This document shows, piece after piece, positions 5,780 to 48,997 of a DNA stretch of 64,000 nucleotides. A program made the position numbers and the translations under genes. The notes beneath the pieces were generated by a model. The model made no database searches and had not been told where the DNA came from. It saw only the letters and a list, made by a program, of their open reading frames with translations. The stretch comes from OM182 bacterium MED-G24 (GTDB lineage Bacteria; Pseudomonadota; Gammaproteobacteria; Pseudomonadales; Azotimanducaceae), in NCBI GenBank assembly GCA_002457275.1, contig NTKD01000001.1, positions 1 through 64,000 on the forward strand. The letters run 5' to 3'. Within the stretch, counting starts at the first letter, position 1; each line of letters starts with the position of its first letter.

Positions 5780-7138
5780 ATGAAACCACTCGAAGTCTGT
5801 ATCCTCGCGGCAGGACTTGGCACCCGGATGAAATCTCAGCGACCCAAAGCGCTGCAGACGCTCGCCGGTAGGACTCTGCTGGCACATCAATTAGCGACCA
5901 TTTCTCGACTGGAGCCGTCTCGTATCCACGTTGTTATCGGCCAGGGTGCTGACCAGATACGTGACGCCTTTTTAGATGACAACCGTGTCCATTGGATACT
6001 CCAGGAGGAGAGGCTCGGTACCGGTCATGCGATGATGCAGGCAATGCTGCACGTCTCGGACAACGCCGACGTACTCATCGTGTTGGGGGATGTACCGCTG
6101 ATCTCCCTGGACACCATGCGTCGACTTACAGAAAGCGGTGCGGATCTGTCGGTGCTTTCTGTCTTACTGGACGATCCGACGGGATATGGGCGGATCGTGC
6201 GTGATGATGCTGGTCAGGTAAGACGTATCGTCGAGCAACGAGATGCCGATGACATAGAAAGAGCCATCCATGAGATCAATACAGGTGTGATGTCCGTATC
6301 TGCCGGGTTGCTCAATGAGTGGCTTCCGCGACTTGATCGCAACAACGAGCAGAATGAGTATCTGCTGACCGATCTCGTTGCGTTGGCCAATGATGAACAC
6401 AGGACGGTGGAAGGCGTGCTCGCTGAGAACCCGCTTGAAGTCACGGGTATCAACTCTCGTCAGCAACTGGCGACGCTTGAGCGCGATCTGCAGAAGAAGA
6501 TCGCTGATGACCTCATGGCGCAGGGTGTTCAACTGGCTGACCCGATGCGCCTTGATGTACGCGGCGAACTGCTCGTCGGTCGTGACGTGTTTATCGACGT
6601 CGGCTGTGTTTTTGAAGGTCGGTGCGAGCTTGCCGATGGGGTGACGGTCGGGCCATACAGCGTAATCCGGGACAGTACGATTGGGCCGGATAGTGTCATC
6701 AAGTCTCACGCCGTGTTGGATGGTGCGACTGTTGCGTCAGAATGCAGCGTTGGCCCCTTTGCACGACTTCGACCAGAAGCCAGAATCGAGGAAGGCGCGG
6801 CGATCGGTAATTTCGTAGAGATCAAAAAATCCGTGGTCGGACGTGGAAGCAAAGCGAGTCACCTAGCTTACCTGGGAGATAGCACGATTGGTGAGGACGT
6901 GAACATTGGTGCTGGAACCATTACGTGTAACTACGATGGCGTGAACAAGCATCAGACCAATATCGGTGACGGTGTCTTTGTAGGGTCGAATACATCCCTT
7001 GTCGCACCAGTTTCGGTTGCGGATGGCGCAAGTATTGGTGCAGGTTCTGTGATCACGACAGACGTCCCGAGCCGATCCCTCGCAATCGGGCGCGGTCGCC
7101 AGCGCAATATCGAAGGCTGGGCAGCCCGTAATAAGTAA
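5780..7138 (+). CDS. glmU: Bifunctional UDP-GlcNAc pyrophosphorylase / GlcN-1-P acetyltransferase
   Basis: This enzyme acetylates glucosamine-1-phosphate and then couples it to UTP, giving UDP-GlcNAc for peptidoglycan and LPS. The N-terminal nucleotidyltransferase domain has LAAGLGTRMKS at residues 9-19. The C-terminal half is a left-handed beta-helix made of hexapeptide repeats, with the conserved NIGAGTITCNYDGVNKHQT. A GTG at 5762 is in frame, but the ATG at 5780 gives the family N-terminus and follows a CGGAG sequence, leaving 452 residues. glmS follows after 20 bp, so the two steps of the pathway are probably co-transcribed. Confidence 0.97.
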   Translation: MKPLEVCILAAGLGTRMKSQRPKALQTLAGRTLLAHQLATISRLEPSRIHVVIGQGADQIRDAFLDDNRVHWILQEERLGTGHAMMQAMLHVSDNADVLIVLGDVPLISLDTMRRLTESGADLSVLSVLLDDPTGYGRIVRDDAGQVRRIVEQRDADDIERAIHEINTGVMSVSAGLLNEWLPRLDRNNEQNEYLLTDLVALANDEHRTVEGVLAENPLEVTGINSRQQLATLERDLQKKIADDLMAQGVQLADPMRLDVRGELLVGRDVFIDVGCVFEGRCELADGVTVGPYSVIRDSTIGPDSVIKSHAVLDGATVASECSVGPFARLRPEARIEEGAAIGNFVEIKKSVVGRGSKASHLAYLGDSTIGEDVNIGAGTITCNYDGVNKHQTNIGDGVFVGSNTSLVAPVSVADGASIGAGSVITTDVPSRSLAIGRGRQRNIEGWAARNK

Positions 7139-7158
7139 CAGCAGAAGGGTCAAATTCC

Positions 7159-8994
7159 ATGTGCGGTATTGTAGGTGTCGTATCGACACGACCCGTCGGC
7201 TATATCATGCTCGAAGGTCTTCAGCGCCTGGAGTATCGAGGCTATGACTCTGCGGGACTGGCGGTCGTCAACGCTGCTGGTGACCTTGAGCGAATACGCA
7301 GGGTTGGCAAGGTTTCAGAGCTGAGGGATGCCTATACGGCCAATCCGCTGGCCGGCCAGATGGGTATTGCGCACACGCGATGGGCGACACATGGCAAGCC
7401 CAGCATGGTAGAAAACGCACACCCACATTTTTCCAGCAGTCGGGTTGGGGTCGTTCACAACGGCATTATTGAAAACTACGATGCCCTTCGAACTGAACTC
7501 CGAGCCGAAGGGTATGTTTTCGAATCCCAGACGGATACAGAGGTCCTCGCGCATTTGATCGATAGAGAGGTGGCTCGCTCAGGTGACCTTGTGACGGGTG
7601 TCCGGTCAACCGTGACTTTGTTGAGTGGGGCTTACGCGATGGCGGTGATCCATAGTGAATATCCGGATCGGATCATCGCGCTGCGATCCGGCAGCCCGCT
7701 GGTGGTCGGTGTAGGCATAGGCGAAAATTTTGTGGCGTCCGATGTTCATGCGTTGAGATCTTTCACCGACAAGTTTGTATACCCCGATGAAAACGAACTG
7801 GTAGAGATTCGCCTGGATGGCGTCAGCGTTGAGGGAAGGCCCATGGCAGAGCTTGCCGAACGTGTCGTCACACTGCGCGGTCAGCCGGGAGATTCAGACC
7901 GTGGTAATTTTCGCCACTACATGCAGAAGGAAATTTTCGAGCAACCCGATTCCATCAGAGCGACTCTCCAGGGCCGTATGACCAATCGACATGTCCTGCA
8001 GCATGCCTTTGGTGCGGAAGCAGAGTCAGTTTTTAACCACGTTCGCGCTATTCAGATCATCGCGTGTGGCACCAGCTTCTACGCTGGCATGGTGGCTCGC
8101 TACTGGTTTGAACGACATACCGGTATCCCTTGTCAGGTCGAGATTGCCAGCGAGTTTCGGTATCGCACTGTGGCGCCCCTGGAAGGGACCTTGCTGGTCA
8201 CGATTTCGCAATCGGGCGAGACGGCAGATACTCTGGAAGCATTACGTAATGCAAAAGATGATGGTCGTTACCTCGCGAGTCTCACGCTCTGCAATGTACC
8301 TGGCAGCACGTTGGTTCGTGAATCAGACTTATCGTTGATGATTGAAGCAGGTCCTGAGATCGGCGTCGCGTCTACCAAAGCATTTACGACACAGTTGGCT
8401 GATCTGCTGTTGCTGGTCGTTGCGATTGGCAAGGTCAATGGGCTGGCGGAGTCCGATGAGACGCAGATTGTTGAATCGCTTGAACAGCTGCCACGATTCA
8501 TCGAACAGGTCCTCACGCTCGATGAGGAGATCAGTCGGATTTCTGAACGGTTTCTACACAAACATCACGCGTTGTTCCTGGGCAGGGGCGAACACTACCC
8601 AGTTGCGTTGGAAGGTGCCCTGAAACTGAAGGAAATTTCGTATGTCCATGCGGAAGGTTATGCGGCGGGAGAGCTGAAACATGGTCCATTGGCGTTGGTT
8701 GATGAGGAGATGCCTGTCGTCGCAGTTGCCCCCAACGACGAACTACTGGAGAAGGTGAAGTCGAACCTCCAGGAAGTCAGTGCGCGAGGCGGTCAGCTCT
8801 ATATCCTGTCTCACATGGAGGATCTGGAGGTCACCGAAGGTGTGACCCACATACAGATGCCTGACTGTCCACAGATTATTTCACCTATTGTCTACACGGT
8901 CCCGCTGCAGCTACTCGCATATCATGTTGCTGTGCTCAAAGGGACGGACGTGGATCAACCGAGGAATCTGGCGAAGTCCGTGACGGTGGAGTAA
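7159..8994 (+). CDS. glmS: Glutamine-fructose-6-phosphate aminotransferase (isomerizing)
   Basis: GlmS makes glucosamine-6-phosphate from fructose-6-phosphate and glutamine, the first step of amino-sugar synthesis. The 611-residue protein starts MCGIVGVV, so Cys2 is the glutaminase nucleophile. Two SIS sugar-isomerase domains follow, with CGTSFYAG and SQSGETADT in the first. It ends in the highly conserved NLAKSVTVE tail. That 3' end is a classic target for site-specific insertion (attTn7), and here it is followed directly by an AT-rich insert and a near-copy of its own last codons. Confidence 0.98.
   Translation: MCGIVGVVSTRPVGYIMLEGLQRLEYRGYDSAGLAVVNAAGDLERIRRVGKVSELRDAYTANPLAGQMGIAHTRWATHGKPSMVENAHPHFSSSRVGVVHNGIIENYDALRTELRAEGYVFESQTDTEVLAHLIDREVARSGDLVTGVRSTVTLLSGAYAMAVIHSEYPDRIIALRSGSPLVVGVGIGENFVASDVHALRSFTDKFVYPDENELVEIRLDGVSVEGRPMAELAERVVTLRGQPGDSDRGNFRHYMQKEIFEQPDSIRATLQGRMTNRHVLQHAFGAEAESVFNHVRAIQIIACGTSFYAGMVARYWFERHTGIPCQVEIASEFRYRTVAPLEGTLLVTISQSGETADTLEALRNAKDDGRYLASLTLCNVPGSTLVRESDLSLMIEAGPEIGVASTKAFTTQLADLLLLVVAIGKVNGLAESDETQIVESLEQLPRFIEQVLTLDEEISRISERFLHKHHALFLGRGEHYPVALEGALKLKEISYVHAEGYAAGELKHGPLALVDEEMPVVAVAPNDELLEKVKSNLQEVSARGGQLYILSHMEDLEVTEGVTHIQMPDCPQIISPIVYTVPLQLLAYHVAVLKGTDVDQPRNLAKSVTVE
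8980..8993 (+). repeat. Left copy of a direct repeat (end of glmS)
   Basis: GTGACGGTGGAGTA, which encodes V-T-V-E and the start of the stop codon of glmS. It matches 13 of 14 bases at 9448-9461. The single difference is a synonymous third position (ACG versus ACT). The right copy reads VTVE-stop in its own frame. The pair looks like the two ends of a site-specific insertion at the glmS 3' end. Confidence 0.6.
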
Positions 8995-24484: not shown

Positions 24485-24490
24485 TATAAT
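24485..24490 (+). promoter_or_regulatory. Probable -10 box for rph
   Basis: A perfect TATAAT lies 26 bp upstream of the chosen rph start, in the short gap between divergent yicC and rph. No clear -35 box is visible at the right spacing. An ATG at 24489 overlaps the box and would sit before the expected transcription start, so it is unlikely to be the rph start codon. Confidence 0.5.
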
Positions 24491-24515
24491 GGAGTTTTCC
24501 AACCAGCAGGTGAAC

Positions 24516-25223
24516 ATGAAACGAGCAGCAGAACGGCCCAGCGACCAGATGCGCCCTGTGACGATTGAACGTGGCGTCAACAAACACGCTGAAGGATCTG
24601 TGTTGATCTCTTTCGGCGATACCCGGGTGCTGTGTACGGCGAGTCTCGAGTCTGGGGTGCCCTCGTTCCTCAGAGGCCGGGGTCGCGGCTGGATTACGTC
24701 TGAGTATGGTATGTTGCCACGGTCAACACATGAAAGAATGGATCGGGAAGCAGCCCGTGGCAAACAGGGGGGTCGAACCGTTGAGATTCAACGATTGATC
24801 GGCCGATCACTCCGGGGGTGTGTCGACATGAAGTCGATTGGCGAACGCACGATCAAGCTGGATTGCGACGTCTTGCAGGCGGATGGGGGAACCCGCACCG
24901 CGTCGATCACGGGCGGATGTATCGCGCTCTACGAGGCGCTCGCTGGCGCTAAACTTGAGAGTGCCTGGCAACGGTTTGTCGCCGCGGTTTCCGTGGGTAT
25001 CGTGGGCGACGATGCCGTTCTGGACCTGGAATACGCTCAGGATTCCAATGCAGAGACGGACATGAATGTCGTGATTTCCGAGTCTGGAGAATTTATCGAG
25101 GTCCAGGGAACGGCAGAAGGCCTGCCTTTTACGCGTCCTCAGCTGAACGAACTCCTCGATCTGGCAGAGAAAGGGTGTCGGGAACTGGTGACACAACAGA
25201 AACAAGCGCTGGGGCTCAGCTAG
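24516..25223 (+). CDS. rph: Ribonuclease PH
   Basis: A 235-residue phosphate-dependent 3' exonuclease that trims tRNA precursors. Conserved blocks include [53 protein letters not shown] and ETDMNVV. ATG 24516 is chosen because it gives the family N-terminus and because the upstream in-frame ATG at 24489 lies inside a TATAAT box. pyrE follows 28 bp after the stop, the same pair as in E. coli. Confidence 0.96.
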
Positions 25224-25251
25224 CGCCGCGGCTCATCTAAAGGAGCGATCG

Positions 25252-25899
25252 ATCAAACTCTACCAGGAACAATTTCTAGATTTTTCGATCCAACAGGGCG
25301 TACTCTCCTTTGGCGAGTTCCAGCTGAAGTCAGGTCGAACCAGCCCCTATTTCTTCAACGCGGGTCTGATCTCCGGGGGCGCGGCGCTGGCAAGGCTTGG
25401 CGAATTCTACCGGGCGGCGATTGTGGACTCGGGAATGGTGTTCGATATGTTGTTCGGTCCCGCTTACAAGGGGATACCGCTGGTCACTTCGACCGTGATT
25501 GCATTCTCCCAGACCGATCGTGATATCAAAATGGCATACAATCGCAAGGAAGCGAAAGATCATGGTGAGGGAGGGCTACTGGTTGGTGCGCCCGTTGAAG
25601 GAAAAGTCCTGTTGATTGACGACGTGATTACCGCAGGTACCGCGATTCGGGACGTACTCACTTTGCTTCGTCAGCAGACCGAGTGTGAGGTCGTGGGTGC
25701 GGTTGTTGCCATTGATCGTCAGGAGCGCGGAACCGGTGACCGGTCTGCGATCGACGAACTGCAGGATGAGTATGGTGTTCACGTCACCAGCATCGTAAAG
25801 TTGGACGACGTCATTGAGTTTCTCAAAGTGCGTCAGGATGTGGACGCCAGCTGGGAAGCTGTTTACCGGTATCGGGAGACCTATGGTGTCGCGGTCTGA
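25252..25899 (+). CDS. pyrE: Orotate phosphoribosyltransferase, apparent ATC start
   Basis: This enzyme joins orotate to PRPP, giving OMP in pyrimidine synthesis. The 215-residue reading has FGEFQLKSGRTSPYFFNAG, GPAYKGIP, NRKEAKDHGEGG and the PRPP loop VLLIDDVITAGTA, all as in PyrE. There is no ATG, GTG or TTG in frame between the upstream stop (25189) and 25423, which would be deep inside the conserved protein. The codon at the family start position is ATC at 25252, with AAGGAG at 25240-25245 ideally spaced before it. Either ATC is used for initiation or the start codon has been mutated. Confidence 0.9.
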   Translation: MKLYQEQFLDFSIQQGVLSFGEFQLKSGRTSPYFFNAGLISGGAALARLGEFYRAAIVDSGMVFDMLFGPAYKGIPLVTSTVIAFSQTDRDIKMAYNRKEAKDHGEGGLLVGAPVEGKVLLIDDVITAGTAIRDVLTLLRQQTECEVVGAVVAIDRQERGTGDRSAIDELQDEYGVHVTSIVKLDDVIEFLKVRQDVDASWEAVYRYRETYGVAV

Positions 25900-26532
25900 T
25901 ATCAAAACACGGGCATTGGGTTTGCTGACGGCAGTGTGTCTGCTGTCACCGGCGCATCTGTCTGCTGATCTCTAAAAATACCTCAATGAAGATGGCGTGA
26001 TCGTGCTGGATTCGCACGTTCCGGCACGTTATGTCAAAAATGGTTACACGGTGCTGAGCCTTGACGGAAGGGTCCTGGAGGTGGTGCCAAGGGCGCTGAC
26101 CCCGGAAGAGATTCGTGAGCGTGACCGGAAACTCATGGTTCAGCGCGCTCGCGATAATGCTGCCCGTCGCCAGGCGGAGGCAGATGAGCGATTATTGTCA
26201 AAGTACTCCACTCTGGCGGATGTGATCAGGGCGCGGGATACCAAGGTTTCCAGCATTCAGAGCTTCATCGAGACGAGCGAAGGCAACCTTGCATGCCTTG
26301 AAGATCAACGTCGTAGCATACAGGGACCGCTGGTGAACGTAGAAACAGCCGGGGGAACCATTGATTCGGCAAGCCTTGAGCGCCTCTTCACGGTTGAAAA
26401 TCGGATCAGTCAGATTCTGGAGGAGATCGAGGAGAAAAAGTCAGAGATGTCCGAGCGTCGTTTGACAAGGAACTGCAATGGGTTCGCGAACTCTACGGCG
26501 AGACCGTATCGACGGCATCAATCAACGATTGA
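25883..26532 (+). pseudogene. Decayed secreted DUF4124-like protein gene
   Basis: Starting inside the end of pyrE, the frame encodes a signal-peptide-like leader (LLTAVCLLSPAHLSA), then meets TAA at 25973-25975 where relatives have an aromatic residue. It then continues KYLNEDGVIVLDSHVP and VLEVVPRALTPEEI, a DUF4124-like N-terminal domain. A charged coiled coil follows. Near 26460 the frame shifts, and the remaining FDKELQWVRELYGETV runs to TGA 26530-26532. One stop plus one frameshift make it a pseudogene. The family label is from memory. Confidence 0.7.
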
Positions 26533-26566
26533 TTCCACTCCGATTCTTGAGAACCGGCGTTCCGGA

Positions 26567-27196
26567 TTAACGCCTTTCCGGTGCGTTTCCGGCATTGTTA
26601 CTGGTTGCCTTGGTGTCGCTGACGACGAAAAGCGCGTGTATCAGGTGCTGCCATTGCTCGGGCCAATCGGTTGTGGGCGATCGTTTGAAGTCACTGCGCA
26701 CGAACTGAATCATCTTACCTTCAGCAGTTGAAAGGCAAAGATTGGCGCATAGGGCAACCGGCATGCTCAGCGTAAGATCCTGCTTAAGGGAACTTTCGCG
26801 GAGGATTTGACGCAACTGGGTTTCCAGCCGTTCAAACAGCTGCTGAATACGAATTCGCAAACGATCCGACTCGCCGACCAGGGGATCGCCTGTCATTAGG
26901 CGGGTAATACCGGGATTCCGTTCTGCAAAACTCAGCAGCAGTTGCAATGTGTACTCAACGCGGCTGACGGTGTCATCAGTATCGGCCATGATCCGATTGA
27001 TACGAGAGAACAGCGAGTCTTCGATAAATTCAATGAGGGCGTCAAACATCCGTGCTTTCGAAGCGAAGTGACGATACAGGGCGGCTTCCGATACACCCAC
27101 CTGCCTCGCGAGCGCCGCGGTCGTAATCCGGTTCCCTGGCGCCTCCTCAAGCATCGTAACGAGTGCAGCGAGTATTTCGTCCTTGCGCTTACCCAT
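26567..27196 (-). CDS. slmA: Nucleoid occlusion factor SlmA
   Basis: A 209-residue TetR-type DNA-binding protein. The helix-turn-helix is TTAALARQVGVSEAALYRHF (about residues 25-44). SlmA binds sites spread over the chromosome and blocks FtsZ polymerisation near DNA. The assignment rests on the SlmA-like N-terminus and on synteny with dut and coaBC upstream and pyrE nearby. It follows argB by 3 bp and ends the operon. The last 20 residues are longer and less typical than in E. coli. Confidence 0.9.
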   Translation of the reverse strand: MGKRKDEILAALVTMLEEAPGNRITTAALARQVGVSEAALYRHFASKARMFDALIEFIEDSLFSRINRIMADTDDTVSRVEYTLQLLLSFAERNPGITRLMTGDPLVGESDRLRIRIQQLFERLETQLRQILRESSLKQDLTLSMPVALCANLCLSTAEGKMIQFVRSDFKRSPTTDWPEQWQHLIHALFVVSDTKATSNNAGNAPERR

Positions 27197-46965: not shown

Positions 46966-48001
46966 ATAGATATCACGGAATTGCTAGCATTTAGTGAGAA
47001 GCAGGGTGCTTCTGATCTGCATTTGTAGGCTGGCCTGCCGCCAATGATCCGTTGGACGGAGATATCTGGCCAATCAACCTGCCTGCGCTGGATCATAAGG
47101 AAGTTCACGCCCTGATCTCTGAGATCATGAACCACAAGCAGCGCAAAGACTACGAGGAGTTCTTTGAGTGTGACTTTTTTTGAGGGGCCGGGTGTTGCTC
47201 GATTCCGGGTGAACGCGTTTGACCAGAACCGTTGAGCCGGAGGTGTCTTTCGAACCATCCCCTCAAAAGTGCTGACGATGGAAGAGCCGGGGATGGGGGA
47301 GGTCTTCCGCAAGATTGCAGAAACACCCCGCGGACTGATCACCGTGACAGGGCCAACCGGATCAGGGAAGAGCACCATGCTTGCGGCGATGATGGACTAA
47401 ATCAACAATAATCGTTGTCAACTCATCCTGACGATCGAAGATCCTATCGATTTTGTGCACGAGAGCAAGAAATGCCTTGTGAACCAACGAGAAGTCCACA
47501 GGGATACGCTGGGTTTCAACGAAGCACTGCGGAGTGCGTTGCGAGAGGACCCGGATATCATCCTGGTTGGCGAAATGCGGGACCTCGAGACCATCCGGCT
47601 GGCTTTGGAAGCGGCTGAAGTTGGCTATATGGTCTTCGCCACGTTGCATACATCGTCAGCGGCCAAAACCATCGACCGGGTTATCGACGTGTTCCTGGCA
47701 TCCGAGACAGCCATGGTGCGCTCCATGCTGTCCTAATCATTGCAGGCGGTCATTTCACAAACGCTGCTCCAGAAGATTGGTGGTGGACGGGTTGCGGCTC
47801 ACGAAATCATGCTTTGCACACCGGCTATTCGAAACCTCATTCGTGAGGACAAGGTTGCGCAGATGTATTCAGCGATCCAGACTGGAGAAATCCATGGAGA
47901 TGTCGACACTGGATCAGACCCTCGTTAGTCTGCTCGATATAAGCCTGATCACCAAAGAGCAGGCGAGGGAGAAAGCCAAGAGTCCTGAGGACTTTGTCTG
48001 A
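46966..48001 (+). pseudogene. pilT: Decayed pilT (twitching motility ATPase)
   Basis: PilT is readable along its whole length but is broken many times. The start is ATA (46966) where ATG is expected, giving DITELLAFSEKQGASDLHL. TAG follows at 47026, a one-base loss near 47053, a slip in the T-run at 47175-47181, TGA at 47233, TAA at 47398 just after Walker A GPTGSGKST, TAA at 47734, and a last frameshift near 47895 before REKAKSPEDFV. Walker A and DPDIILVGEMRDLETI survive. PilT powers pilus retraction, so this gene cannot make a working motor. Its place beside yggS matches Pseudomonas. Confidence 0.95.
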
Positions 48002-48056
48002 GCTGCATCGCTTTTTATCAGGCGATGAACTGCCATAGACCCGACGCAGAAACCGC

Positions 48057-48997
48057 ATGATCGATTTTGACAAACTTCTGAAGGTGGTGGTGGACCAGAG
48101 CGCGTCAGATCTCTTCACCACCGCCGGCCTGCCGCCATCCATCAAGGTCAGCGGTCGAATGATACCGATGTCCAAGACGCCATTGACGCCGGAACAGGCT
48201 AGGGAGATGGTGTATAGCACGATGACCGAGGCGCAGGTCCAAGAGTACGAAGCTGAACGAGGGTGCTTTGCCATTCACTCCCCTGTTGCAGGTCGATTCT
48301 AGGTCAACGCAATTTTGCGGGCATGGTGCTCCGCCGCATCGAGACGCATATTCCGACCGCCGATGAACTGCAGCTAACAGATATCGTCAAGAATCTTGCT
48401 ATGACGAAACGGGGCTTGATCATTTTCGTGGGTGCGACAGGAACCGGTAAGTCCACGTCACTGGCCTCGATGGTCGGACATCGTAACGAGAATAGTCGCA
48501 GTCATATCATTACAATTGAAGATCCCATTGAATTCATTCATGAACATCGCGGTTATATGGTCACGCAACGGGAAGTGGGCGTTGACACACCAAGTTTCGA
48601 AGTTGCGCTCAAGAATACGCTCCGGCAGGCCCCTGACGTCATCATGGTGGGTGAGATTCGGAGTGCTGAAACGATGGAATATGCTGTCGCGTTTGCGGAG
48701 ACCGGACGCCTTTGCTTGGCGATACTGCACGCGAACAATGCCAACCAGGCGTTAGATCGGATTATCAACTTCTTCCCGTCGGAACGACACAACCAGGTAT
48801 GGATGGACTTGAGCTTGAACCTGCGCGGTATGGTGGCGCAGCAGTTGATTCCAACATTGGATGGCGAAGGCCCTCGTGCGGCTATCGAAATCCTGATTAA
48901 CACCCCGCTGGTCTCTGACCTGATCAGGAAGGTTGAAGCCCACAGTTTGAAAGAACTGATGTCCAAGTCGACCGAGGATGAGTTACGACGACGTTAG
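48057..48997 (+). pseudogene. pilU: Broken pilU (PilT-like retraction ATPase)
   Basis: The first part (from ATG 48057) reads SASDLFTTAGLPPSIKVSGR to AGRF, then TAG at 48300-48302. About a dozen bases appear lost here, and the frame shifts to QRNFAGMVLRRIETHIPTAD. The ATPase core then continues open to 48995 with GATGTGKST, APDVIMVGEIRSAETMEYAV and HANNANQALDRIINFFP. The C-terminus is cut short, ending ELMSKSTEDELRRR where relatives have about 30-40 more residues. The core could be made from an internal start, but the N-terminal PAS-like domain would be missing. The stop overlaps that of ruvX (TTAG). Confidence 0.9.

Follow-up and report, generated by a model that had tools for sequence, protein, structure and literature searches.

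The window analysed here, 64,000 nucleotides from the genome of the uncultured OM182 bacterium MED-G24, carries on its forward strand the gene for RNase PH (rph, 24489–25223; TIGR01966, 343 bits) followed by pyrE, the gene for orotate phosphoribosyltransferase, an enzyme of pyrimidine synthesis (25252–25899, 215 amino acids). Translated from the ATC triplet at 25252–25254, the pyrE product scores 180 bits with TIGR00336, the model of the PyrE family, whose curated cut-off is 106.8, and its match to other PyrE proteins starts within the first codons after this triplet. The stop codon of rph (TAG, 25221–25223) lies 28 bases before the ATC. The pyrE frame is free of stops from the end of a TGA at 25189–25191, the last in-frame stop upstream, to its own stop codon at 25897–25899, extending open for 20 codons upstream of the ATC and overlapping the end of rph. 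There is no ATG, GTG or TTG in frame between that TGA and the ATC, and the first canonical in-frame start is the GTG at 25423–25425, codon 58, which lies within the conserved core and was rejected as the start of the gene. A Shine-Dalgarno sequence, AAGGAG (25240–25245), is separated from the ATC by the spacer CGATCG (25246–25251). A first-pass annotation had described pyrE as complete from ATC 25252, after a well-placed AAGGAG, with no in-frame ATG, GTG or TTG before 25423; the coordinates and the first statement proved correct, and the second was confirmed from the TGA onward. This is the single PyrE match found in the genome, and a search of its 86-contig draft for a second copy found none.

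AUC starts are very rare in bacteria, and usually give low, sometimes IF3-sensitive, expression. The AAGGAG of pyrE, a 6-base match at an aligned spacing of 5, stands at a working distance for a start outside NTG, here of the AUN type. Such a match is uncommon in the window: only three of its 2962 ATC triplets (both strands, that of pyrE included) have a Shine-Dalgarno match of at least 6 bases at an aligned spacing of 4–7. As a rough yardstick, since some of the open reading frames compared are not genes and the frame of pyrE is itself among them, we took the 66 stop-to-stop frames of at least 90 amino acids in the window and examined their first four ATG, GTG or TTG codons at spacings of 3–9. 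None reached a 6-base match and three reached 5, the match of pyrE thus exceeding that of every canonical start tested. Predicted RNA folding around the start region gave nothing clear, with z-scores of 1.79 and -1.29 for two folding windows here and -0.35 for the sister species.

The genus consists of two genomes only, that of the window and that of a sister species (G001), both of them drafts about 85% complete. The comparison with close relatives that the first-pass annotation had proposed as a check was run against this sister, whose PyrE is 78% identical to that of the window, and it revealed an ATC at the aligned codon (locus L002, bases 850–852, - strand), with AGGAG six bases before it. 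In the sister the last in-frame stop is at codon -18 and the first ATG, GTG or TTG after it is a GTG at codon 41, and in neither species does an in-frame canonical codon give a full-length product. The identity of the ATC codon says little by itself, because the two genes retain the same codon at 4 of their 11 shared isoleucine codons and, where residues are identical, at 85 of 167. Near the start, both species have kept AGGAG and ATCAAA, while the spacer matches at 2 of 6 positions and offsets -42 to -16 at 7 of 27. The codon directly before the ATC is CTG in the sister and TCG in the window species. A survey of starts over 20 kb of the sister contig (filter of 65% identity and 80 residues) passed 17 frames, of which two antisense shadows were set aside. 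Of the 15 left, pyrE alone lacked a canonical start among its first codons on the window side; a further frame (7135–8994), one of the remaining 14, could not be judged in the sister, where the sequence stretch ended.

To see how unusual this is, PyrE loci were compared more widely. A PyrE match is present in 200 of 206 genomes of the family, and start codons were read for 128 distinct loci, out of 140 drawn from overlapping sets of 30, 80 (the best 80 of a named-genome scan) and 30. Only four of the 128 have no ATG, GTG or TTG from codon -12 to +8, namely those of the window and the sister, L027, which has an ATG at -16, and L137, which has N letters at the start site. With the last two set aside, the window and its sister are the only distinct loci clearly devoid of a canonical start. 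All compared loci from other genera, save the unclear L027 and L137, have an ATG, GTG or TTG near the start site, and the ATC that the sister shares with the window is preceded by a CTG in the sister. Among the literature titles listed, a range that leaves most subscription journals outside its scope, there was no report of an ATC start for pyrE.

The best explanation of the locus, and one that we consider likely, is that ATC 25252 is the working start of pyrE, a genuine AUC start common to the genus that would be read by the CAU initiator tRNA and helped by the strong Shine-Dalgarno sequence and perhaps by coupling to rph. The sequences themselves show the codon, the lack of alternatives in both genomes, the strong Shine-Dalgarno sequence, purifying selection and a CAU initiator tRNA in both genomes; from these we infer initiation at the ATC, the tRNA that reads it, the coupling to rph and a reduced output. 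Both known species of the genus have the ATC, which therefore most probably replaced a normal start in the ancestor that they share. One route is suggested by the overlap between the two genes. Eight of the 128 loci, with the sister among them, have an rph stop and a pyrE start that share one base (TGATG, TAATG or, for the sister, TGATC), 43 of the 128 having no same-strand rph in the stretch examined. Relative to the sister, the window species has its rph stop 29 bases further upstream. The CTGATC of the sister may be set beside the CTGATG of L062 (the same sequence as L127), in which the ATG is the likely start, and a single ATG to ATC change would yield the state seen in the sister.

A different history is hinted at by genus g9, in which three of four loci (G087, G009 and G088) start with GTG followed by ATT, and the fourth (G086) reads GTG-ACC. 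The ATC of the sister could then be an isoleucine codon inherited as the second of the gene, and its CTG a weak start inherited from GTG. On this view the ancestor of the genus used an NTG (GTG or CTG) one codon upstream of the ATC as its start; the sister would still use its CTG, and the window species, having lost it (TCG), would fall back on the ATC or make little PyrE. Besides the resemblance of CTG-ATC to the GTG-ATT of the three g9 genomes, a 4-base GAGG located 5 bases (aligned) before the CTG of the sister speaks for such an earlier start. We nevertheless regard it as unlikely. AGGAG, the longer of the two matches in the sister, is well placed for the ATC (aligned spacing 5) and not for the CTG (aligned spacing 2), although the anti-Shine-Dalgarno duplex energies of CTG and ATC, -7.9 and -8.3, do not separate the two. 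Nor is g9 established as the nearest genus: the PyrE tree places the genus firmly beside neither g9 nor any other genus, and G086, with its GTG-ACC, departs from the pattern within g9 itself. Furthermore, L062 and L127 have a CTG before what is likely an ATG start, so that a preceding CTG is expected from the TGA overlap alone. Finally, in the window species the ATC is the sole start left. The doubt over the CTG matters less for this species, because its codon -1 is TCG and the ATC is the only plausible start.

Gene decay was the other explanation offered by the first-pass annotation, and decay is indeed present in the window. The frame immediately downstream of pyrE (25905–26728) is broken by an in-frame TAA at 25973–25975; a Pfam search with the part of this frame after the TAA gave no match, and its counterpart in the sister matches in two different frames up to the end of the contig. 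Remnants of a type IV pilus ATPase at 47383–48994 lie in different, broken frames (PF00437 at 48257–48994, the rest recognized by eye). It is unlikely, judging from its sequence, that pyrE belongs with these. Between the window and the sister, codons 2–57, all of them upstream of GTG 25423, show a pS of 0.718 and a pN of 0.095, compared with 0.614 and 0.132 for codons 58–215 (pS of the whole gene, 0.641). The low pN relative to pS in codons 2–57 indicates that the N-terminal part has been selected as protein since the two species split. A tree built from 41 PyrE sequences gives the branch leading to the window a length of 0.08 and that of the sister 0.27; the window pyrE, being on the shorter branch, therefore shows no relaxation. 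The reading of the ATC as a rare AUC start thus gained support, from the same codon in the sister, from strong purifying selection and from a window lineage that is not accelerated, and loss of the start codon by decay is disfavoured for pyrE.

That pyrE is a fresh pseudogene that has lost its start is accordingly very improbable, even with a TAA in the next frame and the pilus ATPase frames broken at about 47.4–49.0 kb. A full-length frame scoring well over the TIGR00336 cut-off, purifying selection that remains strong on a branch shorter than that of the sister, a Shine-Dalgarno match retained over 6 bases and an ATC common to both species all stand against it, as does the fact that this is the sole PyrE match in a genome that also carries a dihydroorotate dehydrogenase family protein (PF01180), present in both genomes of the genus. 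A PyrF match (PF00215) came up in the sister but not in the genome of the window, a point against a working pyrE start that says little at about 85% completeness. It is scarcely credible that PyrE instead lacks its own start codon and is produced by frameshifting from Rph or from an upstream start in another frame. In favour is the reach of the pyrE frame, open over those 20 upstream codons and into the end of rph, but upstream of the ATC the two species show no sequence conservation, a strong and correctly spaced Shine-Dalgarno sequence would go unexplained, and inspection by eye showed no obvious slippery run. An error of sequencing or assembly at 25252–25254, conceivable in a draft of 86 contigs, is so very unlikely as to be nearly negligible, because the separate sister genome, whose pyrE differs from that of the window at a pS of 0.641, also has the triplet ATC after AGGAG.

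Taking the ATC, then, as the working start, initiation could proceed by ordinary means. The 30S subunit would bind AAGGAG and set the AUC in the P site, where the usual formyl-methionine initiator tRNA (anticodon CAU) would read it with a mismatch at the third base and two of the three bases paired, the well-spaced AAGGAG compensating for the weak codon. Ribosomes finishing rph may assist, its stop being 28 bases upstream here and overlapping the start (TGATC) in the sister. If the cell requires little PyrE, it may put up with a weak start of this sort. It is possible, if doubtful, that selection keeps the AUC as a throttle in this genus, with PyrE output set by the strength of the start codon and dependent on translation of rph or on the level of IF3, as in sigR and infC.

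Changes in the initiation machinery that might accompany an ATC start were also looked for. A pattern search for the initiator tRNA, with the anticodon left open and one mismatch allowed, returned one match in each genome of the genus, with anticodon CAT, and ARAGORN called a tRNA-Met (cat) at both. An initiator tRNA with an altered anticodon was rejected within the scope of the assembled contigs of these incomplete drafts, in each of which the only match is CAT. The gene for IF3, infC, was not found in either draft, nor were its block neighbours rplT and pheS. All three follow thrS in G087; in both genomes of the genus thrS is present and is followed by other genes. The block thus no longer follows thrS, and most likely it is just missing from both drafts, because it is not credible that L20 and PheS have been lost. 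A loss of IF3 would have been a striking cause of the ATC start, but the absence of infC is shared with rplT and pheS and probably reflects an assembly gap, albeit one at the same block in both drafts. Among the genes beside thrS, one that looks WD40-like by eye lies opposite its 3' end in both genomes (L155, G000:C77:1-5500; L156, G001:C2:1-16000).

The practical consequence is that gene finders using only ATG, GTG and TTG would trim PyrE to 158 residues starting at GTG 25423, or call it a pseudogene. Two species with a common ATC start in a housekeeping gene, together with a strong Shine-Dalgarno sequence, offer a clean natural case for the study of how such starts originate and are kept. 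What is new here is that the ATC is also found in the only other genome of the genus, after AGGAG-N6. That the pyrE start would be a rare feature of a known kind, the non-canonical AUN starts, and so a rare example rather than a new principle, is well supported by the comparisons above.

One AUN start is the AUU of Escherichia coli infC, reportedly described by Sacerdot et al. in 1996. There the AUU is used in the feedback of IF3 on itself. The start proposed for pyrE is similar in being an AUN codon with a third-base mismatch, and differs in that the codon of infC is AUU and serves this feedback by IF3 itself; we know of no feedback role of that kind for PyrE.

Published work on such codons bears on a working AUC from both sides. 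In E. coli, AUC belongs to the seven start codons of greatest strength (PMC12350097, which cites Hecht et al. 2017), and stronger Shine-Dalgarno sites tend to make up for suboptimal starts of the GUG and UUG kind (PMC5622118). In another study AUU, AUA, CUG and AUC reached 0.1–0.3% of AUG in E. coli with one leader and 5–20% with the same leader in clostridia; with a second leader, six alternative starts gave 0.04–3% in E. coli and 40–100% in clostridia (PMC9680021). The poor performance of AUC in E. coli counts against a working ATC start. An AUC start introduced by mutation lowers expression in Bacillus subtilis (PMC10303841), and an ATG-to-ATC change is described in a Neisseria gene, its function unclear (PMC10210955). 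Higher levels of IF3 reportedly inhibit non-canonical starts (PMC2268962), and IF3 disfavours weak codon-anticodon pairs in vitro, as described in passages that do not include AUC with CAU (PMC10158994).

Three other systems come close to pyrE in different respects. The stop-start overlaps of the TGATG type, which work by termination-reinitiation (PMC6728339), resemble the arrangement in the sister, where rph ends and pyrE begins within TGATC; pyrE departs from them in that ATC replaces ATG and, in the window, the rph stop lies 28 bases upstream. For ribosomal protein L12ae of Staphylothermus marinus, likely an essential gene, an ATC start was, as here, inferred by alignment with relatives (PMC2678158); that case concerns an archaeon and one genome, and a sister comparison is absent from the passage describing it. 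In sigR of Streptomyces, which like pyrE has a start outside NTG and which belongs to a translationally coupled gene pair, a GTC start is repressed by IF3, both the start and its regulatory role having been shown experimentally (PMC5472188). Unlike sigR, pyrE has an ATC rather than a GTC, encodes a metabolic enzyme, and has a start that is proposed from its sequence, as any regulatory role of it would be.
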